Assembly (NCBI GenBank): GCA_024220525.1
Contig: JAMYWO010000286.1
Span: 1 to 43,602 of the forward strand
DNA length: 43,602 nt
Source of the DNA: Cochliopodium minus
Lineage: Eukaryota > Discosea > Himatismenida > Cochliopodiidae
Reading direction: 5' to 3'
Numbering within the stretch: position 1 is the first letter of the stretch; every line of letters begins with the position of its first letter. Both the position numbers and the translations under genes were made by a program. Shown piece after piece: positions 1 through 43,602 of this stretch. The notes under the pieces were generated by a model. The model saw only the letters and a list, made by a program, of their open reading frames with translations, did not search any database and was not told where the DNA came from.

Positions 1-73
1 ATAAAATAAATAAAATAAATAAAATAAATAAAATAAATAAAATAAATAAAATAAATAAAATAAATAAAATAAA
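1..73. repeat. 9-bp tandem repeat (AAAATAAAT)n at the left end
   Basis: About eight perfect copies of a 9-base A/T unit run from base 1 to base 73, where the pattern breaks into a run of A. Thymines fall at positions congruent to 2 and 7 modulo 9. The same unit, in the same orientation, closes the right end of the window. Read on the minus strand it is T-rich and lies inside a delta-COP intron whose donor is at 86. Same-orientation copies at both ends argue against telomeres, which would be inverted relative to each other. Confidence 0.97.
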
Positions 74-86
74 AAAGGGGAAATAC

Positions 87-1305
87 ATGTTGAGAAGAAG
101 AGGAAGAGTGAGAAGAATCTTTGGAATCTTTGGAGGAAGAAGGAGAAGAGTTGTTGACGGGGATGACTATTTTTTCTTCTTTTGCGATTGCTTGTAACAA
201 TTTGTCTCCCCCCTTTTTCTTGTTTCCTCCCAATTTCAATCCTGATACGTTTCCCGGTGTTTCTGTTATCTCCACTTTATTTTTTATAAAAAAAAAAATG
301 AATATTAAAAAATTGATAATTTTAAAATCGAAATAAATTATATAATTTGATAGAGATGTTATAATATATTTTGTTTATGTACCTTTAGGAGATAAATTAT
401 ATTATATATAATTTTAAATAATGGGTATGTACCTTTCTTTTTGGTTTCAATGGTGGGAGAAGGGGAGGTGTAGGAAGTAGAAGAGAAAGAAGGACTATCA
501 CTGGAAAAAGAAGAAGATCCAAAACCCTTTGGTCCCATCCCTCCTCCCATTCCTCCCATCTTTCTGCTTTCCTTCTTCTCTTTTTCAAATTTTAATCTCA
601 TTTCCTCTCCTTTTTCCAATGCCTCTCTTTCTTTGTTCTGTTTATTAAAAATAAGATTAGTAAAAAGAATTGATAAATGGATGGAGATTTTATGTTGAAA
701 GAGATTTAAATTAATTTTTATTTTTTGTAAGTAAATTAATTTTGAAAAGGATTTCACCTTTTTGACAATTTCAAATATTTTTTCTTCATGACTATCCATT
801 TCCATACAAGTCTTGATTTGAGGCAAAGATAATTTTTCTCTATAACCCAAAGAGATGACCTCATCAAAAGCAAAAGTAAGTTCAAAAGCTCTTTCAAGAA
901 TTTTTTCTTCAGTGGGGGTACTTTTACAAAATTCAGGAATCAATTTTGTGAATAATTGTAATGCCTCTAAATCTTCCAGGATATTAGATGTTTTATTTGT
1001 TATTATCAGCATGTACAGTGTATCTAGCGGTTGATAAACATATCTTACATTTTGTGTTTCAATAAACGTATGTTGTATATCTGTGCTCAACAATTTTGGA
1101 AATGCAGAGATTAATCCTTCAATTCTTACTCTACTCATTTCAACAAATTGTCTCGCAAGTAAAACTAATGAAAAAAAAAAAATATTAATATATTTCTCAA
1201 TTAATATTATTTTTTTTTAAAAGAAATAAATGAAAGAGAATGAAAATTTAGATTATTCTTACTTCTTCCAGTTTTGGTTATGATAGACGCCAATAAAACC
1301 ACCAT
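87..1305 (-). CDS. ARCN1 (delta-COP): Coatomer subunit delta, N-terminal half (exons 1-4; continues across the window junction)
   Basis: Delta-COP is part of the COPI coat that returns cargo from Golgi to ER. Exons read 1305-1263, 1164-758, 637-433 and 274-87, with GT-AG introns between them. Exon 1 begins MVVLLASIITKTGR and joins to ILLARQFVEMSRVRIEGL, matching the family's start. The longin-type domain follows, with HTFIETQNVRYVYQPLDTLY, SNILEDLEALQLF, AFDEVISLGYRE and EMDSHEEK all conserved. Next come a charged helix, a Gly/Met-rich linker (MGGMGGGMGPKGFG) and a Ser-rich linker. The last exon ends in phase 0 at 87, and its donor GTATTT at 86 opens an intron that runs into the left-end repeat. 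The mu-homology domain is missing here but present at 43444-42505. Joined, the seven exons give about 528 residues, close to the family's usual ~510. Family call is very secure; the exon edges rest on reading splice signals. Confidence 0.95.
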
Positions 1306-1488
1306 TTTTTTTTTTTTTTCATATTTGAATATATTTTTTATTGCATATATTTTTTATACACGTATATTATACCATCATCCTATATGTTGATTTTATTCAT
1401 AAACTTTGAACGATCATTTCAAAGCAAATTTTTGCAACTGATTCTAAAATTAAAGAAACACGCAATTGAAGTTAAGACTATTGATTTA

Positions 1489-2227
1489 TTAATTTTTGAA
1501 CTTCTTTTGATTTTGTTTCTTCTTATTGTAATTTTTTCTTTTTTTATTCTTAGCTTGATTTTGATTGATAAAAGAATGAGCATAATCAAAGATCTTCTTA
1601 TGTTGTGTAGTAAAAATTTTGGTTGCACGAAGTTTTTTCTCTTGCAAAGAGAAAGAAAGAGAGATTTCCTTTTTAAAAACGAAAATAGAAATGGACCTGT
1701 GGGGATGTTTGATACCTTGACAAGGGAAAACGCCCCAAAAAGAACAGTCCTCCAAGAAAGAAACACAAAAAAGACAAAGTAATTCACAAATTCTAACATT
1801 ACCAGTGTCATTGAGATGAATGGCCATGTGTCCTTCTTTTTGTAAAACTCCCCAACTTTTTTTGAGAGAAAAAAAAAGAAACTCCACCAACCATTCGTTA
1901 AAATTTTGAAAAGTAAGAATAGATTGTCCTTTTGTTTCTGTGTACTCTTCAAAGTCATAAAAGGGAGGACTCGTAAAAACAAGATCTGCTTTAAAATCAC
2001 TGGGTATTGGTGCAGATTGAAAAGGGAGGTATATAATTTTGTATTTTTCAAAATTTCCTTCTCCAAATCTTTCAATCATTTTTGAATGTGCTTTTTTAAG
2101 ATTGGTATTCGGATCAAATCCTAAATACCTATCTACATTATGTGCCATTGCCCCTAAAAGTCTATCTCCTTTTTTAATATATTTTTTTATTTCTTTTTAT
2201 TTATTTATTTATTTATTATTATTTATT

Positions 2228-2258
<31 letters not shown>

Positions 2259-2300
2259 TTATTATTTATTTTATTTATTTATTTTATTTATTTATTTATT

Positions 2301-2359
<59 letters not shown>

Positions 2360-3863
2360 TTTTTTATTAATTTATTTTACTTTATTTTATTTTCATTTAT
2401 TTTTTATTAATTTTTAATTATTTTTATTTTTTCTTTAAATTTTTTTTTTTTTTTAATTTTTATTATTTTGACTTTATTTTATATTTATTTACTTTTATCA
2501 TTTTTATGTTAAATTATATTTAGTCATTACCCCAACCAGAAGAAAAATCGAGGAAATGTTTGACATTGAAAAATTTGAGGACAGAAATGGCCAAAGTGGG
2601 ACGAAAGATGCTACATTCTTTCAAGTTTCGATAAAGAGAATCTCTAATATTGGAAGAGTGAAGAGGATAAAGATTGTCACTCATGTAAACAAAAAGTTTT
2701 CTTAGAAAAGAAGAATTTTGAAAAAAAAGAAAAGGAGAAAGTTTTTGGTCTTTTCTTTTTGCTTTCACTCTTTCTTTTTCAGAAAAGAAATCAGTAAGGA
2801 CATTCATAGTAGAATAGTCATCAAGGTGAGGAACCATAATCAAGTTTTTGGAATTCATTCTTAAATCAAAAGCAAAGTAAAAATCATTACAAAATTTATT
2901 TGAATTTTCCAACTCTTTTTCTTCATAAACGGGTTCGTATCTTTTCAGTTTTTCAAAACATTCTCTCACTTCTTCTTCTGTCAAATAATATTTTTTGAGA
3001 GGGAATTTAATTCTTTTTTGTTGAATCAATTTAATTATTGTTTCATGAAAATTTTTAAAAGAATTTCCAAATTCAAAATAACTCTTCTCTTTCTCCTCAT
3101 CACTCTCTACTCTCCCCTCTTTTACTATCCCCTTTTCAATTAAATCTCTTTCTATGCATATTTTTGATAATTCATCCAAGTACCTTTCATACCTCTCATC
3201 TCCTTTATACCTCTCATCTCCTTTATATCTCTCATCTCCTTTATGTATCTCATCTCCTTTATGTATCTCATCTCCTTTATGTATCTCATCTCCTTTATAT
3301 CTCTCTTTTCCTTCATATTTTCTTTTTCCTCGGTGTGTTTGTTGTATTCTATTTCTGTCTTGTATTTCATAAGTTTGTTGTCCATTTCTGTCTTGTTTTT
3401 CATATCTTTTTTCACTACTTGCATCTGTGTAGCTTTCATTGTTAAGATGTAAACTCCCATCAAGAGAATGGTTATTATTAACAAAGGAGAGGGAGGGGAG
3501 AGAGTTTTTTTGTTTTTGATTGTAAAATTCGGATTTAACAAGAAGAAACAAGGTATCCTGAAACAAAGAAAAGATAGAGAGACATCTTTGTATTATTGAT
3601 ACTTTCTTTGAATTTGTCAAAAAAGAAAGAATGGATTCCTTTTTTTCCAAAATTTCATTTTGAAAAGTTTTATATTTGGAATAAAGAGAATCCAAAAAGT
3701 TTATTGATTTTTTGATGTAATAAAGAAGATAAATTGAATCATTGGAAAAAAAAGGCAGTGAAATATGATGAATGATTTGAATGTAATTGTAAGAATTCTC
3801 TAATTCACAACAATCCTTTATATATTTTAAATATAAACTATCTCTGTCATCCTTAATATCCAT
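1489..3863 (-). CDS. SAM-dependent DNA-methylase-like protein
   Basis: Two exons, 3863-2531 and 2168-1489, give about 670 residues. The splice joins DFSSGWG to DRLLGAMA, rebuilding a class I methyltransferase SAM-binding loop (motif I, FLDFSSGWGDRLLGAM) that neither exon encodes alone. Downstream are YLGFDPNTNL (acidic-loop region) and a catalytic-type motif TSPPFYDFEEY, of the SPP[FY] form seen in N4/N6 amino-methylases, then GHMAIHLND. The N-terminal ~270 residues are low in recognisable domains. They carry a pentapeptide tandem repeat (KGDEI/KGDER) near residues 185-225. The 362-bp intron is almost entirely an ATTT microsatellite. The C-terminus is a basic Lys/Asn tail. This could modify DNA, or less likely RNA or protein; the substrate cannot be read from the sequence. 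The family's broad presence in phages and large DNA viruses is general knowledge; the ancestry of this copy is not established. Confidence 0.8.
2185..2400. repeat. ATTT microsatellite inside the methylase-like gene's intron
   Basis: Imperfect (TTTA)n tract with occasional TTATT and TTTTA units, filling most of the intron at 2169-2530. On the coding (minus) strand it reads as A-rich AAAT repeats. Its core unit resembles that of the window-end repeat, so it is a second place where assembly could slip. Apparent reading frames through it (runs of Leu, Tyr, Ile and Phe) are repeat artefacts. Confidence 0.93.
3184..3312. repeat. 15-bp coding minisatellite (KGDEI/KGDER pentapeptides)
   Basis: About eight copies of a 15-base unit (TCTCATCTCCTTTAT and close variants on the plus strand) lie in frame in the methylase-like gene. 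They encode Lys-Gly-Asp-Glu followed by Ile-His or Arg-Tyr. Copies fall in two flavours (His type in the middle, Tyr type flanking), which suggests unit duplication and gene conversion. Expected to be length-polymorphic and unstructured. Confidence 0.9.
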
Positions 3864-4025
3864 TTTACTTGCTTGGAATATGTAAATATTAAGAATGGGA
3901 AATTATAATGAACAATGATTTTTACCTCTTTAATAATTAAGAATTTTTCCAATTTTTTTTTTTTTGAAAATGTTTTATTGTTGATATAATCAAGATCATA
4001 ATTTATGAAATAGATATGAAGTAGA

Positions 4026-4781
4026 TTATGGACCAAATTGTCTTCTTCTCTTGATCCAAGACAAGTTATCTTTACGTCTTCTGTGACTAGCAGTAGCCAA
4101 ACCAGCAGGAGGAACATAAATTTCCCATCCTCTTCTCTTCTTTGTAACATTTCTTTTCTTTCTCTCTTTATCGTGCAATGTTTTGATTTCTTTGGCAGCT
4201 TTTGTCAACAATTTTTTGGTATTTTCTTTCTTCTTTTTTTGTACTTTCAAGAATTTCTTTCCTTTATCTGGTTTTCCTTCTCTTGGTTGTTTCTTTTCTT
4301 TAATAATTATAAAACCAAGTGATTCTGCTTTTCTAATTAACTCCTTTCTCTTCATTGCTGAAACAACTGGGAAAATTTGTCTCTTGCTGAATTTTTCTCT
4401 TCTGAATACTTTAGGTATTGGATTAGGAGATACAGCCCCATTTTCATCAGTTGCAGCTTTCAATAATTTTTTTTTGGCCTCTTTCTTTTGTTTCAAAAGT
4501 TTTTTCTTCTTCAACTCTTTTTTGGATTTTTTTGGAGATGTTTTTGGTTTCGCATCTTTTTTTAATATAGGGAATGAAGAAGAAAAATCTCTTATTGTTT
4601 GATTGATTAAATAATTTGTATTGAGGATATTGTTGAACTGTATATTCTTTATTTTTTCAAAGGTCTGAAAATAATTAGGTTTATCATGCATTGTCATTTT
4701 ATTGAAGAAATGATAATTCTTCATTGCAAAATTGCTTCCCAATTTCAACATTTTCAATTTTTTTTTATTTATATTTAACAT
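4026..4781 (-). CDS. Very basic protein of unknown function, possibly mitochondrial
   Basis: Single exon, 251 residues, extremely Lys/Arg-rich. The first ~70 residues are basic and amphipathic with few acidic residues, so a mitochondrial presequence is possible. A Lys-rich middle (about residues 75-110) and a second basic block (about 165-215) follow. The C-terminus is the least biased part: GWEIYVPPAGLATASHRRRK then SWIKRRRQFGP. The ending and overall charge are reminiscent of mitochondrial ribosomal or other RNA-binding proteins, but I do not recognise a family. An in-frame ATG 10 codons downstream could also be the start. It lies head-to-tail between uL4 and the methylase-like gene, all on the minus strand. 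Coding potential is good; function is unassigned. Confidence 0.7.
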   Translation of the reverse strand: MLNINKKKLKMLKLGSNFAMKNYHFFNKMTMHDKPNYFQTFEKIKNIQFNNILNTNYLINQTIRDFSSSFPILKKDAKPKTSPKKSKKELKKKKLLKQKKEAKKKLLKAATDENGAVSPNPIPKVFRREKFSKRQIFPVVSAMKRKELIRKAESLGFIIIKEKKQPREGKPDKGKKFLKVQKKKKENTKKLLTKAAKEIKTLHDKERKKRNVTKKRRGWEIYVPPAGLATASHRRRKDNLSWIKRRRQFGP

Positions 4782-4857
4782 CTGACGTATTTTCTTTACT
4801 TTAGACTAATTATTTAAACACCAAAAAAAGTTTTTTTTATAGAATAATTATTTTAAT

Positions 4858-6152
4858 TTAGTTAGAGTTTTTGATCAACTTTTCGAGAACAGTTTGTGGT
4901 CCTCTATATCTTCTTTTCTTTCTGAGTTCTTGGTTTCTTTGATTGTTTTTCTTTGCATTTTCAGGTAATCTAGCGAGTAATCTTTTTCTCTTTTGACTCA
5001 AATAGTTTGGATTAAGTCTGACCATTTCTCCAAGATTGGTGAGAGGATTTTTCTTTACTCTTCTTTTGAGAGGAGTTCTGGTTGGGCGGAGAACAGATTG
5101 AACTTCATCAGAGTTAATAACACGTGAAATATCAGAGTTAGAAAGAACAGATGTTGGGAGATTGAATCCAACTTTGTGTGTAGAGTAAGGTCCATAAATT
5201 TCATCAATTTTTTTGAAAGCAGATTCAGTCCATACAATCAATCTTCCGAGATGACCTCCTGGTGCCAAATCGAGTAAGTTCAAGCGAGAGACATCAGTAA
5301 TATCAACTCCTGGCAAATTACGGAATCCTCTGGTGTGGGTAGTTTTTCCACTTACTACAACGAGTGGTCCTTTTCTTTGAACATATCTTCTGTTTCTCCA
5401 TTTACCTTTACCTGCACGAATGTGTCTTGTTCTTTTTACTCTTTCAACATCATTGTAAATTCCTAATTTGGTCAACAATTCAATAGCTTGTTTAGTTTTA
5501 TCAACTGCGTTGAAGGATTCATCAGAAACAACGAGTGGGATTTCGAGAGCTCTTGAGATTCTGTGTCCTCTAGATTGAACAAGAGGAGCAACTGCGGTTG
5601 CTGCCAAAGCTGCTGCTACAGCAAATCTCTTTTGATTTTTGTTGATCTTTCTGTGCCATCTTCTCCAGATTTTGGTTGGTGCAAACATTCTTCCTCCTCT
5701 ACACATGTTTCCGAAAGCTCCTTGTCCGGCACGATGAGTACCACTTCCAGATACACGAGGAATACGAGATACAGCTCTACCAGTACCCCAAGATTCTGCA
5801 GATGTTTGATGTCCAGACAACAAAGAAACTGCATAAGGTTGTCTATTATTCTTTCTCATGTTGGTGTGAACAAATCTAACAACATCAAGACGTATTGGAG
5901 TCAAAAATACCTGATAATCGATAATTCATTGGATATAAGAAATTTTAATATTGATATGAAAAGATATTATTACGGATGGGAGTTTAATAGTGGTCTTATT
6001 TTCCTTTCCTGGGGTGTGAACATTAACCAATGGGCGAGCTGATGCATAAAGTGGAGGGATGACTAGTTAATTTTTAAAATAAGTTAATAAAATTTAATCC
6101 CTTATTGAAAAAATCATATTTAATTGAATGGAATACCTTCTTTTTGAGACAT
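4858..6152 (-). CDS. RPL4: Large-subunit ribosomal protein uL4 (L4)
   Basis: Component of the 60S subunit whose long loop lines the exit tunnel. Exons are 6152-6137 (16 nt, MSQKE), 6062-5974 and 5910-4858, giving about 385 residues. After splicing the N-terminus reads [21 protein letters not shown], then the hallmark stretch [35 protein letters not shown]-type (here [18 protein letters not shown]), [19 protein letters not shown] and RGHRI. The tail is Lys/Arg-rich, as in eukaryotic L4. Codons are noticeably richer in C-ending and favoured forms than in the unknown genes nearby, as expected for high expression. The first exon encodes only five full codons, so a search for uninterrupted frames misses the true start and would begin at TPIRLD. 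Very secure. Confidence 0.98.
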
Positions 6153-6522
6153 TTTCTTCTTTTTTTTTTTTTATAATTAAATATATAAATTTTTTATATA
6201 TAAAAAATTTTCTTCATACTCAACAATTGGATCGATTTTAATTTTAATATAAAAAAATGAGAAAGATTTGAAGAATGAATTTTTTTTTGTAAGAATTAAA
6301 TATGCAATATAATTTGGATCAAATTTTTATATTTTAACATATGATGGTATATAAATTGATCATTGATTGATAATATAATATAATCATATTATCATTTATA
6401 TATATGTTGATTGATATTGATCCATTCTTTGATATATTTGCTAACAAATTTTCAAATGATTGAATGTTCTTCATTTTATACCTTTTTTAAATATATTCTT
6501 TTGTGGGAATGATTTTGAATTT
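6153..6522. promoter_or_regulatory. AT-rich spacer upstream of uL4
   Basis: 370 bases between the end of the EndoV gene and the uL4 start codon. Almost entirely A/T, with homopolymer runs just before the ATG. It must hold the uL4 promoter and the EndoV 3' end, since both genes are on the minus strand. No conserved box or RNA gene is evident by eye. Confidence 0.4.
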
Positions 6523-7968
6523 TTAATTGAAAGCATTATCATAATTTTCTTGAATAAACAATCGAGAATAATTATCCGCAAAATGAATAGGCTCAGGAAG
6601 AGGATTTTTCAAATACAAACTTTTAACGATTGATACACAAGTTGGTAAATCGATACGATGACCAGGACTGATAAATATTTGTTGATTGTTTTTGATCATT
6701 ACACAAGCAATATCTTTCCCGGTTTTCTGATCATTCAAATGAGCATCTACTCCTTTAAGTTTTCCTTGTTCCAGTGATTGTTTGACTGATTCCTCAGTGA
6801 TTCCTCTGCAATACAACAATTTTTTTGAAACACCCAAAGTAGGAATATCGCAGATAACTCCCCTGAAATTAAATTTTTAATATTAAATAAAATTAAAATA
6901 AAAAATGTTAAGTTGGTGTTTACAAGTGACAAGCAAGACCAAACAAACTTGGGTGTAATATTCCATTTCCATCAACCAAAATTAATTGAGGTAAAAAACT
7001 GGGAGCTTCTTCTTTCAATTTGTTCACCAAAACAATGAAAGCAGGAACTGAAAAAAAATAAATAAATTCTTTAATAAATTTAAAAGAGATAAAATTACCT
7101 TCTCTGAAAGCTAAAAAACCAGCAATGTAAGGAGCTGTTAACTTTAGCATGGTATAGCATTCGTAAACTATTTTCTTTGTTTTATAATCCATGATTACTA
7201 AACAAGCACAAGCATCTGTTTGATTTTTTCTTTTTCAAAACTTTTAAAAATCAAATAAAAATTTGAGAAGAGTAGATACCTAGGAAAGGAAATGTCCACT
7301 CCACCCACATATTTGATACATTGTGGAGAAGAAGGTATGAGATTCCAATCAAACCTATTAATCAATTCCACTTTATCAGACATTTTCTTTTGTTCTTCTT
7401 GCCACTCTTTTTTGATATCATTTGTTGGTACTTGAGGCTAAAATAGCAAATAAGAAATAAAAAAATTGAATTCAATCAAAGAGAAATTTACTTGTTTCCC
7501 AAAAAATTTTTCTTTTTCCCAATTTTTATCGATGACTATTGAGCAATTTATTGAAGATCCAGGAATGACAAGTTTGGGATATCTATTCAAAATGTCTAAA
7601 ATAGATTTGCTAGCTCCTTGATTCTTCATTTCATTTGCATCCAATTTTATTTGATTTTTATCAATTGAAGTTTTCAATTGGAGAAAGTTTTCTTGTGAAG
7701 ATAAATCCTTGTAGATCTTTAACGATTCTTCTATTGTTGGAAATTCATCAGAATCTATTTTTGAAATATTATTATCAAATTGTTTGAATTGATATATTTC
7801 TAATCGATCATCATATTCTTCTCCGTAATCTCCCTCATCATTTTCCTCATTTTCTTCATATTCTTCAGGAATATTAGAATGGGATCCTTTTCTTTGATTA
7901 TACTCTACTTGGTTTATGAATCCCATATTGTATAATTCTTCTAACTTGATCAATTCACTTTTCAACAT
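6523..7968 (-). CDS. ENDOV: Endonuclease V with an N-terminal extension
   Basis: Endonuclease V cleaves nucleic acid next to inosine; the eukaryotic enzymes act mainly on RNA. Five exons (7968-7492, 7437-7280, 7229-7099, 7047-6924, 6862-6523) give about 409 residues. The catalytic domain has all expected blocks: YVGGVDISF (first metal Asp), LTAPYIAGFLAFRE (catalytic Glu), LILVDGNGILHPSLFGLACH (third acidic residue), GVSKKLL and ISPGHRIDL. Ahead of it are about 160 residues not found in the usual enzyme. They begin with a short helical motif, LEELYNMGFINQVEYNQRK, of SHOCT type, followed by an acidic Glu/Asp-rich stretch. The in-frame phase-0 splice at 7492/7437 supports one fused protein, but a separate upstream gene cannot be excluded without transcripts. 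It is divergent from the thioesterase gene, with only 89 bases between start codons. Confidence 0.93.
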
Positions 7969-8057
7969 TCAATTTTTTAAATAATTTTTTATTATATTTC
8001 AATCAAATTATCATTAAAAACCTCAAAAACTCAAAACCAATTTAAGAGTTTAAAAAA
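7969..8057. promoter_or_regulatory. Short bidirectional promoter region (EndoV / thioesterase)
   Basis: Only 89 bases separate the divergent start codons of EndoV (minus, 7968) and the 4HBT thioesterase (plus, 8058). The stretch is A/T-rich with T-runs on the left and A-runs on the right, so each start codon is preceded by an A-run on its own strand. Both 5' UTRs must be very short or overlap the opposite promoter. Confidence 0.5.
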
Positions 8058-8729
8058 ATGACACATAGCATAAATAATCAACAAATGGGGATGTAAGATA
8101 ATTGATCTATTCTTTTAAGAATTTAAAAAAAAAAAATGTTGTTTGAAAATAGGAAATATCCAATGACAACGGAGAGAAAAGCAGATATTGTCGATCACGA
8201 TATCAATGATCATGTTTTCATTTCAATTTATTTTATCTTTAATTCAAAATTTCAAATTCTCAATAAAAGGTTTCAAATATTATTTTTGCAAGATGGTATC
8301 AAATTGCAAGAAATGAATATATTTTAGAATGCGGCATAGAAAGGCCAATTTATTTTCTATTGGCTTCAATAAAAATAGATTATCTTTCTCAAGTAAATTT
8401 TTTGTTTAATATTTCAAAATTAAAACAATTTCAGTTGAGAGCTCCAGATACTATCATAATAGAAAGTTCTGTAATTCCTTTTTTTTTTGTCAAAAAACTT
8501 ACAAAAGATTACATCTATTTTTCCACAAAAGATAACAAAAATTGGAAATAAAAGTATCGAGATGATTGCTCAAATTAAAAGTAAAAAGCAAAACAAAGTT
8601 GTATCAAGAGCAACAATGATAAGTGTATGTGCTCAAAATGGAGAATCAATTCCAATTCCAGATTTCATTAAACTAAAAATAAAGAAATTTGAGAATATCA
8701 AAGAAACTAATAATCTTTCTCATTTATAA
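8058..8729 (+). CDS. 4HBT-family acyl-CoA thioesterase
   Basis: Hotdog-fold thioester hydrolase, about 150 residues from five small exons: 8058-8092, 8153-8213, 8270-8392, 8435-8470 and 8532-8729. No single reading frame shows the domain; it appears only after splicing. Then IVDHDINDHVSN (family motif D-x-N-x-HV-N with the usual catalytic-region Asp), IFARWYQIARNEYILE (helix after the motif), ASIKIDYLSQ, DTIIIESS, TKIGNKSIEMIAQI and RATMISVCAQNGESIPIPD follow in the order of YbgC/acyl-CoA thioesterases. Length equals the family's usual 130-150. The exact acyl substrate is unknown. There is no obvious targeting peptide. Exon edges are all GT-AG and keep frame. Confidence 0.87.
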
Positions 8730-8787
8730 AGCATTATAATTAAAGATTTTGAAATTAGATTTCTCTTAAATTAAATAATAAAAAAAA

Positions 8788-9513
8788 ATGAATAGTAATA
8801 AAGGATTGAGAAGGTAAAAATGAATAAATATCTACTCCAGAATATTATTTATTTTTAATTAGAGGTGGGAAGGTTGACTATGAAGGTAAAATCCTCATCA
8901 ATGTCACTATTTTATCAAATTAATCCTAATATATATAAATATATATATATATAAAGGTGTTGTCGACTATGGAGCAGTCTTAGAAAATTATGAATGGAAT
9001 CAAACACAAGATGAAGTAAATATAACCATAAAATTGCCACAAGGAAAAACTCCAAAAGATATTATTTGTGATATCAAACCCAATAGAATTAAATTGGGTT
9101 TTAAAGGAGAAGAAAAATTGTTATTTGATGGTCCTTATCCAGGTGGAAGAAAAGTGATCACTGATGATTCTTCTTGGACATTTTCTGGTACTTTGGATAT
9201 TACTTTATGGAAATTCGATAGAGGTGATGAATCTTGGTGGCCATCCGTTGTAGAAGGTGAACCAGAAATTGATACTGAATTAATCAAAGGAAGCAAATAT
9301 CTTGATAGGGGCTTATTATTGAAATTAAGGGTAAAAATTAAAAAAATTTAAATCTTTAAAAAAGTTTAACTTTAAAATTCATTTTTGCAAAAGAAACAAA
9401 GAGAAGAACAAAGAAGGCAAGGGAAATTAAAAGATAATGTTCCAATAGTAGAGAAGCAACCTGGAGACGATGAATTAATAAATGCATTGCAACAAAATCC
9501 AAATGATAATTAA
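8788..9513 (+). CDS. CS-domain (NudC-like) protein
   Basis: Exons 8788-8813, 8863-8885, 8957-9330 and 9394-9513 give about 180 residues. The core (residues ~30-115) is a p23/CS domain of NudC type: YEWNQTQDEVNITIKLP, DIICDIKPNRIKLGFKG, LFDGPYPGGRKV, DDSSWTF and LDITLWK. Such proteins act as Hsp90 co-chaperones or in dynein/nuclear-migration complexes; which role applies here cannot be told. The C-terminal ~40 residues are a charged helix (KQREEQRRQGK) and an acidic end. The second exon is only 23 nt. Starts 58 bases after the thioesterase stop, same strand, so the promoter must lie within or just upstream of that gene's 3' end. Confidence 0.85.
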
Positions 9514-9590
9514 TTTTTCAAATAAAATTTTATTTGATTCTTTCATATTATTGTTTTTTAAAATATATCGCACAAAATATAAAAAAAAAA

Positions 9591-10184
9591 ATGTCTGAGA
9601 ATAAAGGATTCACTCAAAAAATATTTAATTTTTTCAGAAAAGAATTTGATAGCAATGAAGAAGGTTTTTATGAATTGACTGAAAAACGTATGAGAGCTGG
9701 TGCTGCAACGTATTGCTTTATAAAATATATATATTTATATTTACTTTATATTCTTATAAAGTAAGAAAATAAGAAGCTTATATCAAATGCCAAAATTTGA
9801 TAATGAATTTAGAGGATTTCTTTTGAGACCAGAATTTTTATTAAGGTAAAAATTATAATTCTTTTATTCCTTTTATTATCATTCTCATAATAAATATGTA
9901 GGAGAGGATATTTCATTGATTCATTTCAAGCTGCAAATATGGAACGTCAAGGATTATTGGCAAGAACCACATTTTATCGTCATTTAAAAACATCAAATGG
10001 ATTAATTATTCCTTGGACTGTTAATATTGGAAAAGAGCATGAATCAAGTTTTGGAAGAAGAAAAGATTATTTGAATGATAGCATTGAAGATTTATTATCA
10101 ACTGAAGATGAAATTGCTTTTAATTATTCAAATTTGCCTATTCAAATTACAGGAGTGATTGAAGGAGAAATAGTAATCAAATAA
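9591..10184 (+). CDS. Conserved-looking small protein, unrecognised
   Basis: Three exons (9591-9709, 9774-9845, 9902-10184) splice to about 157 residues. It starts MSENKGFTQKIFNFFRKEF and, after the first splice, reads RAGAATSLYQMPKFDNEFRGF and then RRGYFIDSFQAANMERQGLLA. The body is mixed charged and aromatic, with no signal peptide, transmembrane segment or known motif. Introns carry clear GTATTG/GTAAAA donors and AAG/TAG acceptors, and phases agree, so it is very likely a real gene. It is the third of three plus-strand genes spaced 58-78 bases apart, and its stop lies 105 bases from the end of the convergent TMEM192-like gene. Confidence 0.7.
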
Positions 10185-10288
10185 TAATCATAAATCAAAT
10201 AATAATCAAAATAGAAATAGCTGTTAACAAAAATAAACAATCTTTAAAAACAAACTTTATTTAACAAATAATACTTGAAAAAAATAAT

Positions 10289-11206
10289 CTATTTTTTCCC
10301 AATTTGTCTCTTTAAAATTTCACATTCTTTTTTGTATTCATCCCTTTCGGAGATAATCAGTTTCAATTCATCATTTTTTCTATCAAGTGATAAATTATTT
10401 TGATCATACACTTTTAATTTTGAATTCAACTCCAAAATTTGTTTGCTCAGCTTTTCTTTTTGTTCCCTCAAATATCTGATGATTTCTTCTTGCTTTGAAG
10501 AAATATCTTCATCTTCTTCTTGAATATGCAATAATCTGGTTTTAATATTCATACTTTCAAGATCAGAATAAGCATCTGGCGCATATTTTTTCCGATTGTG
10601 GACTATTATCAAATCTATTCATCAAAAAGATTTGATTTCAATGAATTAATGGCATTTAAATACTTACGTGCATAGAGAATCAAAAATATTGATGTGCTTG
10701 CAAATTCCAAACACACTATGATTTGTAAAGCATTTATAGTATTAAATTTTTCATTTGAAACATCTGATAACCAAATGCTCAACAAAATAACGATTGATGC
10801 ATTTCCCACTGACCAAATATAGAAAGGAGATTTTTCCAATATCCTTGTTTTTCTATAAAATTCTAAATATCCTCTTGTTCTTGCTTGTTTATGAATGTAA
10901 TTTAGATATCTATTGAATATTACAATAATAAGATAGATGATAACTTGGATTATTGTTCTCAATTTAAATGGGGTTAGATCTGATGGTAATTTTTTATCAA
11001 ATGGAAGATCAATGAAACACATTGAACAATATCCAGCCTTATAAAGGTAAATAAAATTGAAAAATATTCTTAAAAAATGGTACCATCAATAGAAATTCAA
11101 CAATAACAACCCATAAAGTCTTGATATGGAAAAATACATTATAATTCCCACTTGATGATAAAGAATTTGGAACATATAAAAAGGGGCTTTCATCTTCGCT
11201 CATCAT
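10289..11206 (-). CDS. TMEM192: TMEM192-like lysosomal membrane protein
   Basis: Three exons (11206-11084, 11037-10668, 10614-10289) give about 272 residues, the same length as animal TMEM192. Four hydrophobic segments are visible: around LWVVIVEFLLMAGYC, TIIQVIIYLIIVIF, SIVILLSIW and IIVCLEFASTSIFLILYA. Between helices 2 and 3 is the family-like stretch HKQARTRGYLEFYRKTR. The C-terminal tail is cytosolic and coiled-coil (ISSKQEEIIRYLREQKEKLSK), matching the tail helix of TMEM192. In animals the protein sits in late endosomes and lysosomes with an unclear role. The second splice removes a stop codon and creates LILYAH-LIIVHNRKK. Identification rests on order and spacing of features plus short matches, so it is strong but not certain. 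Confidence 0.8.
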
Positions 11207-11435
11207 TTTTATTTTTTTTTTAATTGAAAAATTTCTTTTTTCATTTTCTGTGAATAAATTTATTTGATTTATTTTTTGGATTGATAAAGTTGACCAAAAT
11301 TGTTGGAAAGAACTTCAAATTATGTAAGAATTTTTTTAATTAAAAAGCCTTGGTAAATTGACCAAAAACAGTTTAGAAAAATTTCAATAAAATATAGAAT
11401 GTGTTCAATTTTAATTAACAAAAAATAAAAACCAT
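11207..11435. other. AT-rich spacer between TMEM192-like and RNF10-like genes
   Basis: 229 bases upstream of the TMEM192-like start and downstream of the RNF10-like stop. Contains A/T runs and two loosely similar stretches with the words TTGACCAAAA and TTGACCAAAAAC at about 11291 and 11359. No coding potential or RNA gene seen. Confidence 0.35.
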
Positions 11436-15793: not shown

Positions 15794-15826
<33 letters not shown>

Positions 15827-30873: not shown

Positions 30874-30995
30874 TCTCTTTTTTTTTGGCTTTCTTCTTTA
30901 CTTTTTTTTTTTGTTTTGTTTGGATCTTTTTATCCAAATTTATATCATCATTGTTTAAATTTAAAAAACATTTTTAAAAATAAAAAAATTTATGT

Positions 30996-32244: not shown

Positions 32245-32462
32245 TTTTTTTTTCAATTAACTGAATTTTCTTCCAAACAAAAATCCCAAAAAAAAATTAT
32301 GAATGGTCATTTGAGATCAAATTTGAGATCAAAATCAGACACGATAGGTTTTAAATAAAAAATTTTTTTTAATAAAACAAATTATTATTTTTGATGGAAA
32401 AAAGTTTGTGTGTATGAAAAAAGTTATTTTTTTTTGTTGAAAAAAAATGGATATATCCTCCT

Positions 32463-33123: not shown

Positions 33124-33435
33124 TCTTCTGTGTATATAGGGAAAAATAAATAAATAAAATTATATTTTTTTTTTTTTGATTTTTTTTTTTTTTTTTTTAT
33201 TTATTTCTTTTCTCTCAAATGAAATAAAAAAAATATAAATCCTTTGAGCAAAAAAATTTGTAATCTTTATTGGTCAAAAAAAATGTGACGTTGGAGGAGG
33301 AATTTTAATAAAAAAGAGATAATCTCATTAATCTAAGCAATCTAAATGAAAATGATAAATGAATATAATAAAGAGAAAAAAAAGAGAATAATCAAATATT
33401 TTTATTTTTTTTTTTCAGAATTTAAAATTAATTAA
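33124..33435. other. AT-rich spacer with long T and A runs
   Basis: 312 bases between the acidic-protein start (33123) and the CaMK-like stop (33436), both minus strand. Includes T-runs of 10-18 bases near 33163-33199. No coding or RNA feature seen. It should contain the acidic-protein promoter and the kinase 3' end. Confidence 0.35.
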
Positions 33436-34980
<1,545 letters not shown>

Positions 34981-35163
34981 CTTTTTCAAAAATTACTATT
35001 TTTTTTTTTTTAATTTTGAATATAAAACAACAATTCAAGACATCAGAATTACCTGAACAATAAATTATTTCATATTACTGACAATAGAGGGGATTTATAT
35101 TCAAAATTTTAATTATATTTATAAGCATATTATTATTAAAAAATTAATGAGAACAATCAATTT

Positions 35164-35636
35164 TTATTTGAAAATGAATGTAGGAAATGTTGAATGTTCA
35201 ACAACATAGGTAGATACACTTCCCATCACAATATTCTTCAATCCACTCAAACCTCTTGAACCCATTGCAATAAAATTGACTTGATGTTTGGAAGCACATT
35301 CCAAAATTACTTCTCTTGGATCACCTCCCAAATATTCTATTTTTTGCAATTTTAATTCAATCACCCAAACAAATTATTTTCCTATTTTATTTTACCCTCA
35401 ATATATTTAATATTGTGCTCCTCTAATTTACTTCTGAATCTTTCAAGTTTTTCTCTGCACTCTGATTCTGCTTTTTCTTTTTTCAATAGGTTTTTATCTT
35501 TTGGATTTATTGCTTTTGAGACCATCAATAATATCACTTGGTCATCTTTTTTGCAAAAATTTGAGACATGTTGGAGTGCTGCATAAGAATAATCAGATCC
35601 ATCAGTTGCCAATAACCATACTACGTTTCCTTCCAT
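35164..35636 (-). CDS. Universal stress protein (UspA family)
   Basis: Two exons (35636-35396, 35336-35164) give about 137 residues, the standard length of a single UspA domain. Starts MEGNVVWLLATDGSDYSYAAL, then a beta-alpha unit with VILLMVS. After the splice come GGDPREVILECASKHQVNF and the ATP-binding loop IAMGSRGLSGLKNIVMGSVSTYVV (G-x2-G-x9-G-S pattern), ending in FPTFIFK. The nucleotide-binding residues look intact, so an ATP-binding Usp is likely. Divergent from HYOU1 with 324 bases between start codons. Confidence 0.95.
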
Positions 35637-35960
35637 TTTAAAAATCAGTTAAACAATTTTTTTTTTTTTTTGCTGATTAATTTAATATCAAATTTTGGCT
35701 TTAAAATTTTGAAATTTGCCAAAAATTTGCAGTGATTCTAATTTAAAACTATGTTTCAATCAAATCTCTTTGGATCTACTTGAAGCTCTTTCAATTTTAA
35801 AATGTTTGATTTAAATTTGAAAATCCACAATAATATCGTAATTTTTTAAATTTATTTCCAAAAGAAAAGAGATGATGATAGAATTTTATATTTTTGAATT
35901 TGAGTCACTCCAATTATAATTTCACAAACAAATCAAAATAAGAAAAAAATAAAAAAAAAA
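35637..35960. promoter_or_regulatory. Bidirectional promoter region between the stress protein and HYOU1
   Basis: 324 bases between divergent start codons (35636 minus, 35961 plus). Mostly A/T but with moderately complex sequence around 35690-35880. Both neighbours are stress-type genes, so a shared stress-responsive element is conceivable. I see no clear repeated GAA (heat-shock) array or ER-stress box by eye. Confidence 0.4.
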
Positions 35961-38790
35961 ATGAAAAATATAATATTAATCACCTTATTCATTTTTTCTA
36001 TATTCCATTTAATCAATGGTGCAACAGTATTGGGAATAGATTTTGGATCAGATTCCTTTAAAATGGCTATAATAAAGGGAAACAAATTTGATGTAATTAT
36101 AAATAAAGAATCATCAAGAAAAACATTGAATGCAGTGGGATTTACAAAATCCATGGAAAGGGTATTTGGAAATAGAGCATCATCATTGGTACAAAATAAA
36201 AGAAATATTAATTTTAAAAATTCTTTTTATAAAATTCTATTTATTTTCTCTAATTTTTTATTTAGCAAGTGAGAAATGATGATAGGGTATTTAAATTTGC
36301 TTCAAGTCTTCTTGGAAAGCAATTTGGAGATGAATTGATAGAATCCAAAAAGAATTTTTTTCCATACAAATTGGTGAAATTGGAGGGCAGAGATACATAT
36401 GGAATATCCATCACAAATAAAACAAATGAGGTGGTATTTTCTGTTGAAGAAATTATAGCTATGTTGTTGGAGCATGGAAAAGAAGCAACAGAAGCATTTA
36501 CATCAGGACCTATAAAAGATTGTGTCATCACAGTTCCATCCTATTGGACACATCATCAAAGAAAAGCTCTGGTATATGCAGCAAATTTGGCTGGATTAAA
36601 TGTTCTTTCAGTAATCAACGAATTATCTGCTGTCGCATTAGAATATTCTATCTCAAGAAAATTTGAAGGAACAGAAAATGTAATATTTTATGATCTTGGT
36701 GAAGCAAGTGCAAAAGCAAGCGTGGTATCTTTTAGCAAATTTTTAAATGAAAAAAATAAGACTGTCACACAAGTGAGAGTGTTATCTTCAAAATGGGATA
36801 CAAGCATTGGAGTGAGAGATTTGGAAAACAATTTGATCCAATATTTCGCAGATTTGATCAACAAAGATAAAGCATCCCACAAATACACTGGAGGAGATAT
36901 AAGAAAACATAAAGGTGCTATGGGAAAATTGTCCAAAGAAACTAGAAGAACAAAGGAAGTTCTCAGTGCAAATACAGAGACAATTGTATCAGTAGAAGGG
37001 ATAATTGGAGAATATGATTTCAGGACCCAAGTCAGCAGAGAAATCTTTGAAAATATCAACTCCAAGTACTGGGATCAGTTGGTTGATTTGGCTCGTGTAG
37101 CTCTTAAGGATGCAGACGTGGATGTGAAAGATCTTGCAGCATTTGAGTTAGTTGGGGGAGGTATCAGAATACCAAGAGTGTATGAATCTTTGAGAAAGTT
37201 CTACGGAAGAGATTCCCTCGACAGACATTTGAATGGTGATGAATCTGCATGCCAAGGCGCATCTTACTACGCTGTCACCAAAAGCATTGCTTTCAAAACA
37301 CAAGGAATTGAATTGAGAGATATCAATCTTTATCCTATCAGCGTCAAGATTTTGGATGAAGACATGAAGGACAACAAAAAAGTATTTTTTGGAGATCGCT
37401 CCAAGTTTGATGATAAAAAGTATCTTTCTTTCAGAACTTTCAACAACACTCTTGTTCGTTTCGATTATGAACCTTCCAAGATCCTCCCTAAGGGTACTCC
37501 TCTCCCTTTGTCTCTTTACAACATCACTGGAATGCCCACTTCCGCAGAATTCAATTTTACCACCACTCCAAAGATCACTGCCACTGTTCTTTTTAAAAAT
37601 GGGGTTGTTTCCATCGAAAAAGCTGAGGTTCGTTTCAGATACGCCACCACCCAAAAAATCACCAAAAAGATCAAAAAAGAAGAAAAATCCAAAAAGACAG
37701 AAGAAGAGAATATCCCTCCCACCCCCACCACTACCGAAGAAAGCAAAGAAACAGCAGAGGAGGCCAAAAAAGAGGAGAAGGCATCTGATTCCAAGAAGAC
37801 CACCGAAAAAGGAGCAGAAAAGGAAAAGGAGAAGACCTACGAAGAGATTGTTGTTTATGAGCCTGTCAACAAGACCAAAACCATCAACTTGATTGTCCAT
37901 GAGACTTCTCTTGGTTTTGCTGATTTCACTGCAGAAAAAATCGCAGAAATCAAGAAGCGTTACAACCGCATCAACAAGGTTGAGAACCACAGAGTCCAAA
38001 AGCAAAAGGCTTTGAATGACTTGGAGTCCTACATTTTGAACAACCGTGATGCTCTTGAAGAGAAACCTTTCGTTGAGGCTTCTACTGAATCTGAGAGGGA
38101 GGCCATCAAACAAACTTTTGAGAACAACTTGGAGTGGTTGGAAGAAGATGGGTAAAAAAAAAAAAATTCAATTTTTTAAATTAATATTTTTTATTTTCAA
38201 TTTTTTATTTTTTTGAATTATTTTTAGATCATCTGCTGCACTTAAGGAACTCGAAAAAAGAATCAAGGAAGTGAAAAAAGATGTGGAGAGAGTACAAACC
38301 AGGATTAGCGAAGCAACCGCATTCCCCCAAGCAATCCAATCCTGCCGCACCACCGTCAACTTCACTCGCATCTTGCTCGAGAACATCACTCTAACCTTGG
38401 AAGTCACTGAAGAGGAAAAAAAGGATGGTTTGAACGATGCAAATGAATTGGAAACCTGGTTGACAGAGAAAGAGACTGAACAAGGTTCTGTTAAACTCTT
38501 TGAGGATCCTAAAGTAACTTCTGCCACTGTCAACTCTAAGTGCAGCATTTTTACTTCTCTTTCTCGCCGTCTTTTGGGAAGGTTTTCAATTTTTTTTTAT
38601 TTTTTATATTTGTAATTTTTTTTTATTTTTTGATAGAAGAAAAAAAGTTCCAAAAAAAGAAACCACCAACACTACTGAATCTACCAATTCCACCAGTGCT
38701 AATTCTACTAGTGCTGGTGATTCAAAGAAAAAAGATTCTACTACTGAGGAAACAACTCCTCAAACCGAAAAAGATGAAGAAATTTTATAA
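35961..38790 (+). CDS. HYOU1: HYOU1/GRP170-type ER Hsp70 chaperone
   Basis: Large Hsp70-related chaperone of the ER lumen and nucleotide exchange factor for BiP. Exons 35961-36188, 36266-38151, 38228-38581 and 38637-38790 give about 873 residues. A signal peptide (NIILITLFIFSIFHLINGA) is followed at once by VLGIDFGSDSFKMAI, as in this family. The ATPase domain has LLGKQFGDE, CVITVPSYWTHHQRKA, LNVLSVINELSAVALEY, FYDLGEASAKASVVSF and FELVGGGIRIPRVYESL. Then come a beta-sandwich region, a Lys/Glu/Thr-rich acidic insert (about residues 540-600) and a helical C-terminal domain. The end carries three closely spaced Asn-x-Thr/Ser sequons (NTTE, NSTS, NSTS) and stops at EKDEEIL, with no clear KDEL-like retention signal. 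GC-ending codons increase strongly from the 5' to the 3' half. Confidence 0.96.
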
Positions 38791-38800
38791 AAAAATATTT

Positions 38801-38806
38801 AATAAA
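38801..38806 (+). terminator. Candidate poly(A) signal AATAAA downstream of HYOU1
   Basis: AATAAA lies 11 bases after the HYOU1 stop. In such A/T-rich DNA the word occurs often by chance, and it is followed by a 12-A run and an N. Position is plausible for a poly(A) signal; not demonstrable from the sequence alone. Confidence 0.25.
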
Positions 38807-38811
38807 CTTAT

Positions 38812-39071
38812 TTAAAAAAAAAAAANCAAAGTTTTCTTTGTTTCCAAATCAAACAAATCATCATGATCAAGATTTTCGAAACACTCCATTTTTTGGAGGA
38901 TTTCGTCTTGGTTGTTGATAAGTCCGATTTGTTCTTGGTAAAAACCAAGATATCTCACCCTCTCTCCTTCTTTGTATAGTTCAATTTTCTAATTCTCTTG
39001 ATTTTGTTGGGACCTATAGAAAATCTAACTTTTTTCTGATAAAGTTCTACATTTGAAGCTTTCAATTCCAT
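38812..39071 (-). CDS. Small or truncated gene ending at an ambiguous base
   Basis: A convincing exon body on the minus strand runs from 38988 to about 38827, reading KIELYKEGERVRYLGFY, QEQIGLINNQDEILQKMECF and DDLFDLETKKTL, with coding-type base composition unlike the surrounding spacer. It then meets the single N at 38826 and a T-run giving a stop at 38812. An upstream exon 39071-39030 (MELKASNVELYQKK) fits by a 41-base GT-AG intron, giving about 72 residues. No family is recognised. Either this is a tiny gene, or the N marks a break that cuts off the rest of a larger one. Its stop is 21 bases from that of convergent HYOU1. Confidence 0.45.
38826..38826. other. Ambiguous base (N), possible assembly join
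   Basis: The only non-ACGT base in the window. It sits after a run of 12 A, between the convergent ends of HYOU1 and a small minus-strand frame. It could be a miscalled homopolymer base or a minimal gap symbol. Confidence 0.9.
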
Positions 39072-39330
39072 TTGAATTACTCAAGTGATATTTGAATTGA
39101 TGTAAAATAAAATTTTTATCTAATCCCTTCTCTTTTTCTTTTAAAAATTCAAAGAATTAAAAAAAAAAATTAAAAAAAAATTGGATCATTTTCATCGAAT
39201 ATGGTATCAAATAAACCAATAAACCCAATTCAATTCCATTTTATCCATAAATTTAAATAATTTAAAAATACTCAAAAAGAAAAAATCAGATTTTCAAAAG
39301 CTTGAAAATAGCCCAAAAAGACCTCCATAT
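39072..39330. promoter_or_regulatory. Spacer upstream of the Asn-rich coiled-coil gene
   Basis: 259 A/T-rich bases between the small minus-strand frame and the ATG at 39331. Presumably the promoter of the plus-strand gene and, if real, of the small minus-strand gene. No recognisable element. Confidence 0.35.
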
Positions 39331-39771
39331 ATGATAAAAAAACAAAATACCTCTCTGCAAAATGATAATCAATTTGATGATCTTTTTTTGGAAAAATTGG
39401 AAATACCAGATGAATTAAATTATCAAAATAGTATTGATAATGATTCAAATCCCCCTCATAGTTCAATTGATAGTAATAATTTAAAAACCAATATTAAAAT
39501 GACCAATATAGCTAATTATGAGGAAGAAAATGAAAAGTTAAAAGAGATTCTGGAAGATAAAGAAAAAGAAGCGAAATTGTTGAGATCTCATCTTCATTCC
39601 ATCCAATTAAACGAAAAAACCAAAAATAAAGAATTGACTTCCCTAAAAAATCAATTAGAATTCACCAAACATGAATTACTCGAAAAAGAAAAATTCCTCT
39701 CTTCCGAACCTCCAAACAAAGATAAAAATAATAAAAATAATAAAAATAATAAAAATAATAAAAATAATAAA

Positions 39772-39804
<33 letters not shown>

Positions 39805-40101
39805 AATAATAAAAATAATAAAAATAATAATAATATTAATGATAATATTAATAATAATAATAAGAATAATTCAAATGATGATAAGAACATAAGAGAAGAA
39901 AATGAGAATGAAAAAGGGAAAAAGAGAAAGAAAAAAGAAGGGGAAATTTCTGATGAAGATCCTCTTAAACCTCCCAAAAATAAAAAAATACAACTACACT
40001 TCTTCCCTTCTCCTAGTGACAATAACAACAGAAAAAAACAAAAAGAAATTAAAAAAAATAAAATCATTTTTAATAATAAAAAAAATTACACAAAAAATAA
40101 C

Positions 40102-40133
<32 letters not shown>

Positions 40134-40704
40134 TATTAATAATAATAAGAATAATGATATTAATAATAATAAGAATAATGATATTAATAATAATAAGAAT
40201 AATAGTAATAATAATAATAATGATAATGATAATAATAATAACAATAACAATGATGATATTAATAATAATAATAGTAATAATAATGATAATAATAATGATA
40301 ATAATAATAATAATAATAACATTAATAATAATAATGATAATAGTAGTAATAATAATGATAATAATAATAATAATAAAAATGATGATAATAATAATAATAA
40401 TCATAACATTAGTAAGAATAATGATAATAATAAAAATAATAAAAATAAAAATGAGATTAATAATTTGAGAAGTAAATCCCTCTCCGTCTCTCCTCATCGT
40501 TCTCCAAATAAAAACAATAAAAAAAGAAAACAAAGAATGAATGCAACCATCCCTTTTTCCCCTCTCCGCTCTCCTCGTATTCACCTCAACAATAATAAAG
40601 ATAACAATAATATTAATAATATTAATAATAACATTATTAATATTGGCAATAATAATGAAAATAATATTAAAAATAGTAATAATAATAACATTAGTAATAA
40701 TAGC

Positions 40705-40787
<83 letters not shown>

Positions 40788-42450
40788 TAATAATAGTAAT
40801 CTTAATAATAACATTATTAATATTGACAATAATATTAAAAATAATAAGAATGATGATAATAACAATAATAATACTTTCAACGATATTAATGATGTAAATA
40901 AGAATATGAACAGTTGTGATTACATAAATAACAGTGATAATACTGAAGATACTTTTTCTTTATCTTCTAGAACCACTTCTCCCAACAAAAGTAGTAACAA
41001 TTACACAAACAAGAGTAGTAATAATGTCAGTAATAACACAAGGAGTAGTAATAATACAAGGATTAGTAGTAATAATACAAGTAGGAGTAGTAATAATACA
41101 AGTAGCAGTAATAATAATACAAGTAGCAGTAATAATAATATAAGTAGGAGTAGTAATAATACAAGGATTAGTAATAATAATATAAGTAGGAGTAATAATA
41201 ATACAAGTAGCAGTAATAATACAAGTAGGAGTAATAATAATACAAGTAGCAGTAATAATAATATAAGTAGGAGTAATAATAATACAAGTAGCAGTAATAA
41301 TACAAGTAGCAGTAATAATAATATAAGGGAACATTATGCATCATTAACAAAAAAGAAAAAAGTAAAAATTATACCTCATCTCATTCCCCTTCTCTCCTCC
41401 TTTTCTTCTGATTTTCCTCTCTCCAACAACAATACCATCAACAATAACCGTAAAAATGATAACTGCATTAATAATAATAAGGGTATTAATGAGGATAATA
41501 ATAAGGCTATTAATGAGGATACTAATAAGGCTATTAATGAGGATAATAATAAGGCTATTAATGGGGATACTAATAAGGGTATTAATGGGGATAATAATAA
41601 GGCTATTAATGGGGATACTAATAAGAGTATTAATGGGGATAATGGAGAAAGTGGTGATGAAGAAATGTTTTTGGAAGATTTTGAAGAGGAAGTAGAGATA
41701 GAAGGGAAATGGGAAGAAGAAGCAGTTGAAGAAGATTTACAAAGAGAAACTTCTCTTCAACAAAAAATGGAAAAATTAAAACAGAAAATGAAAAGAGTGA
41801 AAGAATGTGTTTATGAAAAAAAGTGGGAAAATCAATTTATTAGAAACAAAGAAGAAATAAAAAACATTGCTCTTTCTGTGGGAGAAATGTTAAAAGAAAA
41901 TTTTAATTTTCAATCGTTAAATGAAGAAAATTCACAACAAAACCAACAACATCAACAAATCTTAAAAACTAAATGTGAAAAACTAGAAAGAAAACTGGAA
42001 AAAGAAATTCAAACAAACAAAAATTTGACAAAAAAAATGGAAGAACAAAAAAAATATCTCACTTTATTCAACGAAAAGCTGAAATTGAAAGAAGAAGAAA
42101 TCAAAAATTTGAAAAAAAACAATGAACATCAAAACATTCTGCTCGAAGAAACAAGAAAAGTAAAAAATCAAATTCAAAAGTCATTAGAAGAAGAAAGACA
42201 AGTTTCTCACCAATACAAACTAAATTTTAACAACAAAAATGAACAGATTCTCATTCTTTCAAATCAAAATAATCAACTCCTTCAAGAAAGAAAGCTAATT
42301 TCTTTAAATTTTTTGGAAATTCAATCTCTTATTGAAAAAAAAAAAAGATCTATTTCCTTCTTAGAGAAAGAAAAACACATGGATTTGATTGAATCAAAAG
42401 TATTGGCCAACTTTCCCGTCTTCAAAGATTTTGATGAAGAAAACAATTAA
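39331..42450 (+). CDS. Asn-rich coiled-coil protein, unrecognised
   Basis: Single exon, 1039 residues, no introns despite its length, unlike almost every neighbour. N-terminal ~130 residues are a charged coiled coil (EEENEKLKEILEDKEKEAKLL). Residues ~130-600 are dominated by AAT-coded Asn, but are interrupted by three ordinary islands: a Lys-rich block with KKIQLHFFPSPSD, and two Ser-Pro blocks, SLSVSPHRSPNKNNKKRK and TIPFSPLRSPRIHL. Then come Ser/Asn/Thr repeats (SSNNTSSSNN), an island KKKKVKIIPHLIPLLSSF, and in-frame NKAINED/NKAINGD heptad-length repeats. The last ~230 residues form a second long coiled coil with Gln/Glu/Lys and FLEIQSLIEKKKRSISFLEKE. The Ser-Pro islands look like kinase target sites and basic nuclear signals. 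A scaffold or filament-associated role is conceivable; no family is identified. Confidence 0.8.
39720..40890. repeat. AAT trinucleotide repeats coding poly-Asn
   Basis: Three dense blocks (about 39721-39880, 40095-40470 and 40590-40880) of AAT with scattered GAT, ATT, AAA and AGT triplets, all in one frame of the 1039-residue protein. The other frames read ATA/TAA, giving Ile runs or stops, so only the Asn frame is coding. The opposite strand gives Leu/Ile-rich frames that are artefacts. Confidence 0.95.
41025..41330. repeat. Tandem 12-15 bp repeats coding Ser/Asn/Thr
   Basis: Variants of AATAATACAAGTAGCAGT and AATAATATAAGTAGGAGT alternate in frame, encoding NNTSSS and NNISRS words. Order of the variants is irregular, which suggests local duplication and conversion. 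Confidence 0.9.
41466..41645. repeat. 24-bp tandem repeats coding (D/N)NKAIN(E/G)D
   Basis: About eight copies of a 24-base unit (GATAATAATAAGGCTATTAATGAG-like) with a switch from GAG (Glu) to GGG (Gly) in the second half. Asn and Thr alternate at one position (AATAAT versus ACTAAT), giving an alternating two-unit pattern. Confidence 0.9.
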
Positions 42451-42504
42451 TTTTGTGAAAATTTGATTAAATATGTTTTTTTAATTTCAAAATATCTTAT
42501 TATA

Positions 42505-43444
42505 TTATTCAAAATCAATGATATATTCTCCCGTTTCGATGATAGAATTAAGAGAAAATTTGGATTTATTATTGGTGGAGAGATTTTGAACTTTATCAAC
42601 AGAAATATCACAGTAAGGAGTAGAACAAGTAAAATAAGCACGAATAGGAAAAATTAAAGAATTATCTTTGATATCTGGTATTACAAACTCCATTTGACCA
42701 TCTGTGTTTTCTGAATCTACTAATGCAATATTCCAAACCAAAGTTGAGGACTTTGGATCGAATCTATACTGTCCAGTTGATTCTTGTACAACTGGTTTGA
42801 CTCCCTTTTAACAATTGTTAATTTTAGATTTTTTTAAAATAATTATATAATATTATTTTTTTTATTGAAAAATTTGAAAGTTGTTACTTGAGGAAGAGGG
42901 ATGTGAATATTCAGGTCTCTAAGTTCACGATCTTCCTTCAACAAAATGTATTCCAAATTAACAACAGTGGTATCAGTGCTTCCAACAGAAGGCCAAGCAG
43001 TAATTTGAAGAGGATGTTCTCCTTCTTCTTTTGATGCATATCTCCATTTCAACACTGGAAGTTTTTTTGCTCCCACTGGATACTTTTTTCCTTCCCCTAT
43101 TTAAAAATTTCAAATTGTTTTAAATTTATTAAAAATTTTTTTTTAAGTAAATAAAAATAAAATTGAAAATAATAAATTTAAAAACAAAAAAAAAAACAAA
43201 AAAAAAAACCTTTTAAAGAAATGATGTTGTCTTGCCATTTTTTTTTGTCTATGTGGGGATGAGTGGACATTCTGTATTCTTTGGTGGCATTGTTTTGAAT
43301 GTAAACATCAATGGAAGAATCATCATTGGAAGAAACAGTTAATGATAAACTTCCCTTCACTTCAAACATTTTTATTACCCCGTCTTTGTCCATTTGTGCA
43401 CATATTTGTTCTTCAAATTCAAAATGAACAGACTCTTGTTGCAC
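42505..43444 (-). CDS. ARCN1 (delta-COP): Coatomer subunit delta, C-terminal half (exons 5-7; begins across the window junction)
   Basis: Mu-homology domain of delta-COP, the cargo/regulatory part of the COPI coat. Exons are 43444-43210, 43096-42888 and 42804-42505. The first starts right after an acceptor (AAAAAG) at 43445 in phase 0 with VQQESVHFEFEEQICAQ, equivalent to the ESVHMKIEEKI-type start of this domain. Then MFEVKGSLSL, MSTHPHIDKKKW, YPVGAKKLPVLKWRYAS, PLQITAWPSVGS, IHIPLPQ-GV, STLVWNIALVDSENTDGQMEF and an end in TGEYIIDFE follow. No start codon or longin domain precedes it here; the missing first half is at 1305-87 on the same strand. The 157 bases from 43445 to the right end, plus 86 at the left end, form the linking intron. 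Family identity is secure. Confidence 0.95.
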
Positions 43445-43525
43445 CTTTTTTAAATAATAAAAATTTTCAAAATCAATACAAGATTATATAGTACTTAGTA
43501 CTAAAAGAATACAATAATACAATAC

Positions 43526-43602
43526 AATAAAATAAATAAAATAAATAAAATAAATAAAATAAATAAAATAAATAAAATAAATAAAATAAATAAAATAAAT
43601 AA
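43526..43602. repeat. 9-bp tandem repeat (AAAATAAAT)n at the right end
   Basis: More than eight perfect copies run to the last base. By direct comparison the last 67 bases equal the first 67 in phase. The tract lies within the intron that precedes delta-COP exon 5, just downstream of an AATAC-rich stretch. Confidence 0.97.

Follow-up and report, generated by a model that had tools for sequence, protein, structure and literature searches.

The stretch of DNA considered here, referred to below as the window, is 43,602 bases long with a G+C content of 28% and makes up the whole of one record, C283, in the Cochliopodium minus assembly (GCA_024220525.1, contig JAMYWO010000286.1), the genome searched comprising 44.65 Mb in 598 records. 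Twelve of the 20 reading frames submitted from the window found a match in Pfam, and no replication or plasmid gene was seen among those 12. Ribosomal protein L4 is encoded at 4861-5925; the initial annotation had counted two ribosomal proteins in the window, and Pfam confirms L4, the frame next to it at 4029-4805 giving no Pfam match. Beside an endonuclease V gene, at about 6235-6491, the window carries a repeat of some 140-220 bases that is dispersed in the genome: of the 40 matches listed in a search with 1301-20900, 39 fall on it, and they come from 38 contigs at 83-89% identity. Towards the other end of the window, 35904-38787 on the plus strand holds an Hsp70-family gene, its Hsp70 domain recognised by Pfam, with a signal-like N-terminus and the C-terminus EKDEEIL; the product presumably resembles endoplasmic reticulum (ER) chaperones of the HYOU1 type. 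An open frame of 1075 codons with long low-complexity repeats follows on the same strand at 39223-42450 and has no Pfam match.

A gene for the coatomer subunit delta-COP is found in parts at both ends of the window. A rough delta-COP model of 532 amino acids, which also has matches among solved structures of coatomer delta (best 5a1u_H), gave six exon-sized matches in the genome, all of them in C283, and the search of the 44.65-Mb, 598-record genome with this model returned no second delta-COP match. Its top match among 8000 candidates scored, at 99% identity and 100% query coverage, was P0001, a protein of 528 amino acids from a Trinity transcriptome in EukProt. When base 43602 is closed onto base 1, a spliced search reproduces all 528 residues of P0001 on the minus strand as seven exons separated by six GT-AG introns. 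Exons 1 to 4 lie at 1263-1305, 758-1164, 433-637 and 87-274, the last followed by the donor GTATTT at 86; exons 5 to 7 lie at 43210-43444, preceded by the acceptor AAAAAG ending at 43445, at 42888-43096 and at 42505-42804, the last including the stop codon. Each of the seven is an exact match to P0001, and the intron that spans 43602/1, running from donor 86 to acceptor 43445, is in phase 0 and 244 nt long as closed. The initial annotation had proposed from the genomic sequence a single delta-COP gene split between the window ends, of seven exons and about 528 residues and with this same phase-0 junction; the transcript protein bears out the split to the base and the gene model residue by residue. 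Since P0001 crosses 43602/1 exactly, the two ends of the window are adjacent in the real genome, and the earlier argument that two loci joined at random would not restore a gene is correct. Next to the start of delta-COP, at 1374-1456, there is also a short repeat of 83 bases that is 99% identical to C7:247669-247751.

The two ends of the window share one 9-base microsatellite, (AAATAAATA)n, oriented alike, at 1-76 on the left and 43527-43602 on the right (inner boundaries approximate), each being one part of delta-COP intron 4, with a contig break at this site. The ends share an exact suffix-prefix match of 67 bases, which is no evidence of circularity because repeats alone yield such an overlap. 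An A/T-rich microsatellite opens five of the 15 record starts read among C273-C282 and C284-C293, so an ending in a microsatellite is ordinary in this assembly. The window was previously taken to behave as a circle, a reading that the joined ends alone do not establish: exactly one undefined base is present in the window, at 38826, and had been overlooked. Given this single N, the window is most simply seen as two scaffolded contigs rather than as an unbroken sequence, the first, here called Q, running from the record start to 38825 with delta-COP exons 1-4, and the second, P, from 38827 to the record end at 43602 with exons 5-7, both as deposited on the plus strand. Two contigs placed in swapped order would look the same as a circle, and P should most likely precede Q, the join at 38826 being most likely false. 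Single Ns are found elsewhere in the assembly, in C47, discussed below, and in C318, where a gene is cut on each side of the single N at 19323 and where a long (AAATAAATA)n array is present as well.

The sequences that meet at the undefined base differ in kind. To the left is the 3' end of the Hsp70-family gene on the plus strand, followed by a run of A, and to the right is a minus-strand reading frame cut by the N. The latter belongs to a dispersed element of reverse-transcriptase-like character, a fragment of which opens P at 38827-39075 on the minus strand (inner boundary approximate), as recognised by genome search and by reading its relatives. Matching in two parts, this stretch has relatives on C303, C206, C47, C94, C121 and C334, and twice on C124. 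A reading by eye, rather than a profile search, suggests that in one relative, L025, the frame of the element continues into a non-LTR-type reverse transcriptase; Pfam, PDB and protein searches with the fragment itself returned no usable match. That the cut frame is an ordinary truncated gene was considered and rejected, its relatives on several contigs showing a dispersed element. Microsatellites and the dispersed element are likely sites of contig breaks, as at the two kinds of edge seen here, though the element at the N could instead mark a real recombination point.

The window is best explained as an ordinary, linear locus of a chromosome, the order of its two contigs having been exchanged, a reading to which we assign a probability of about 0.94. 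Assembly would have broken within the delta-COP intron 4 microsatellite, leaving P (38827-43602, exons 5-7) and Q (1-38825, exons 1-4), the real order being P, microsatellite, Q. Scaffolding would then have linked these true neighbours and kept their strands while swapping their order, giving Q-N-P with a false join at the N. With only two pieces, such a swap would turn the true junction into the meeting ends of the record and so mimic a circle. The single N at 38826 suggests this mechanism, in which P and Q are true neighbours placed as Q-N-P. Ns are commonplace where contigs are scaffolded; in a section of PMC4076250, a positive gap is described as being shown by one or more N, according to gap size. 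Such an order would arise if the orientation of paired links had been misread (everted pairs), a possible cause of the swap. The order P-Q restores the interrupted delta-COP gene in agreement with P0001. An N join is found inside the record, the swap restores a gene, and a similar error is seen in one other record, C47.

C47 is 202,208 bases long. A single N at each of 172784, 175398 and 198480 delimits its last pieces as A (172785-175397), B (175399-198479, read in part, so that further internal Ns may occur) and R (198481-202208), deposited in the order A-N-B-N-R. A minus-strand GH92 glycosidase gene is distributed over two of them: three matches at 174432-173137 in piece A cover positions 17-231 of its N-terminal domain, PF17678, and five matches at 198320-196519 in piece B cover positions 119-463 of its catalytic domain, PF07971. 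At E <= 0.001 the genome gave no further match to PF17678 or PF07971. The N-terminal half therefore lies 22 kb lower than the C-terminal half, where a minus-strand gene requires it to have the higher coordinates, and from this reversal it follows that the end of B should precede A. The halves do not meet cleanly: some 118 positions of PF07971 that would lie between them were not found, and the microsatellite that ends B has no counterpart at the left edge of A. It is formally possible that C47 carries two separate partial GH92 genes.

A second minus-strand gene of C47, of secreted type, has 5' exons at B's left end and 3' exons at R's right end, and at both of these piece ends it is cut in an (AATAATA)n microsatellite. 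Compared by eye, the microsatellites, the orientation and the splice phases agree and are compatible with a gene that would run continuously if R were followed by B. A search for a homologue gave none at E <= 0.001, and the gene is counted as support and not as proof because no homologue proves its continuity. Expectations set down in advance, on the premise that the pieces stand in reverse order, fared unevenly here: the piece after the second N does show the 5' part of a gene compatible with the one cut in R, the cut gene in R is not the WD40 gene that had been named, and a microsatellite expected at the left edge of A was not seen there. The order R-B-A fits both genes, the second less firmly, where the assembly has A-B-R, and a swap in the same sense applied to C283 gives P-Q. 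Apart from these pieces, VPS18-like genes were seen at C47:1-2500 and C175:85570-87015, the copy in C47 being cut in a microsatellite at the left end of the record; its 5' exons, likewise expected in advance, had no match in the genome search.

Swaps of this kind in C47 and C283 would carry little meaning in an assembly that was scrambled throughout. Controls were drawn from families with many exons, taking genes with at least two pieces on one contig and contigs regardless of Ns, and all 40 such genes had their exons in normal order (10 of 10 for Cpn60, 15 of 15 for kinesin and 15 of 15 for myosin). Three of the control myosin genes, on C79, C84 and C496, are partial, and single-piece genes or fragments (one Cpn60, one kinesin fragment and three myosins) were left out.

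Other histories would also bring the window ends together, and the initial annotation had offered three: a circle, a tandem unit and a linear locus permuted by assembly. The last of these is the one that the evidence favours, the other two having gained no positive support. A genuine extrachromosomal circle, about 43.5 kb in size and with chromosomal-type genes, linearised at the microsatellite of the delta-COP intron, would explain why P0001 finds the ends to be true neighbours and why no other delta-COP match was found in the genome searched; its N join would be true, perhaps as the point of recombination between two retrotransposon copies, an exchange that the element at 38826 could mediate. 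It requires, however, that the N join be trusted in an assembly where the pieces of C47 around single Ns are out of order for the GH92 gene, and the 12 Pfam-matched frames of the window include no replication gene and no plasmid gene. To our knowledge, a delta-COP gene solely on a circle would be very unusual, which was likewise counted against the circle, and we regard it as highly improbable. The case that the window is one unit of head-to-tail tandem copies, collapsed in assembly, deserves as little credit. It too accounts for ends that join into one gene and it too needs a real N join, but a collapsed unit should, by reasoning, break at the duplication boundary and not inside delta-COP in a way that leaves the gene intact. 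The delta-COP exons were each matched once, and no long second copy of 1-1500 or 38500-39120 was among the matches listed, results in which a collapsed copy would stay invisible. With 1301-20900 and 20901-39600, 39 candidates were scored for each stretch and the window itself was not among the matches, so that these comparisons do not bear on a second copy. Even taken together, a circle or tandem unit of about 43.5 kb that holds the only detected delta-COP gene, L4 and other housekeeping genes and is closed through the element at 38826 is very unlikely.

An unrelated chimera, in which shared repeats caused a chance join of P and Q at the N and the fact that they are true neighbours through delta-COP is a coincidence, would draw on the fact that P opens in a dispersed element matched on several contigs, where false joins are easy. 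With hundreds of pieces to choose from, chance would nevertheless seldom hit on the true neighbour, and the swap in C47, seen in one gene and compatible with a second, points to a systematic cause, so that a chimera of this kind is scarcely to be expected. It had further been suggested that two separate truncated delta-COP loci with different flanks would speak against the joining of the ends. Both halves of delta-COP lie inside the single record C283, and a search for truncated loci is uninformative as to which history applies because both halves sit in one mis-ordered scaffold.

With high probability, then, the circle is an artefact of assembly and the underlying locus, read as P followed by Q, is ordinary. 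What was probably a false claim, that of a chromosomal circle bearing genes, is thereby removed. Contigs appear swapped in both records where the order around a single N was testable, C283 and C47, and gene models, synteny and claims of 'circular permutation' that extend across a single N in this assembly need to be treated with caution.

Two known situations resemble what is seen in C283. Extrachromosomal circular DNA carrying genes would likewise leave one gene joined across the ends of a record, and it differs in that closure of the ring needs the join at 38826, where the continuity of C283 is interrupted by one undefined base. Scaffolding errors from everted links are the closer parallel. 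Everted pairs are described, in a passage of PMC3648348, as giving a 'wrong order of tags', and in C283, where the cause is deduced from the result, the outcome would be the one that such links produce: the contigs keep their strand and their order changes.
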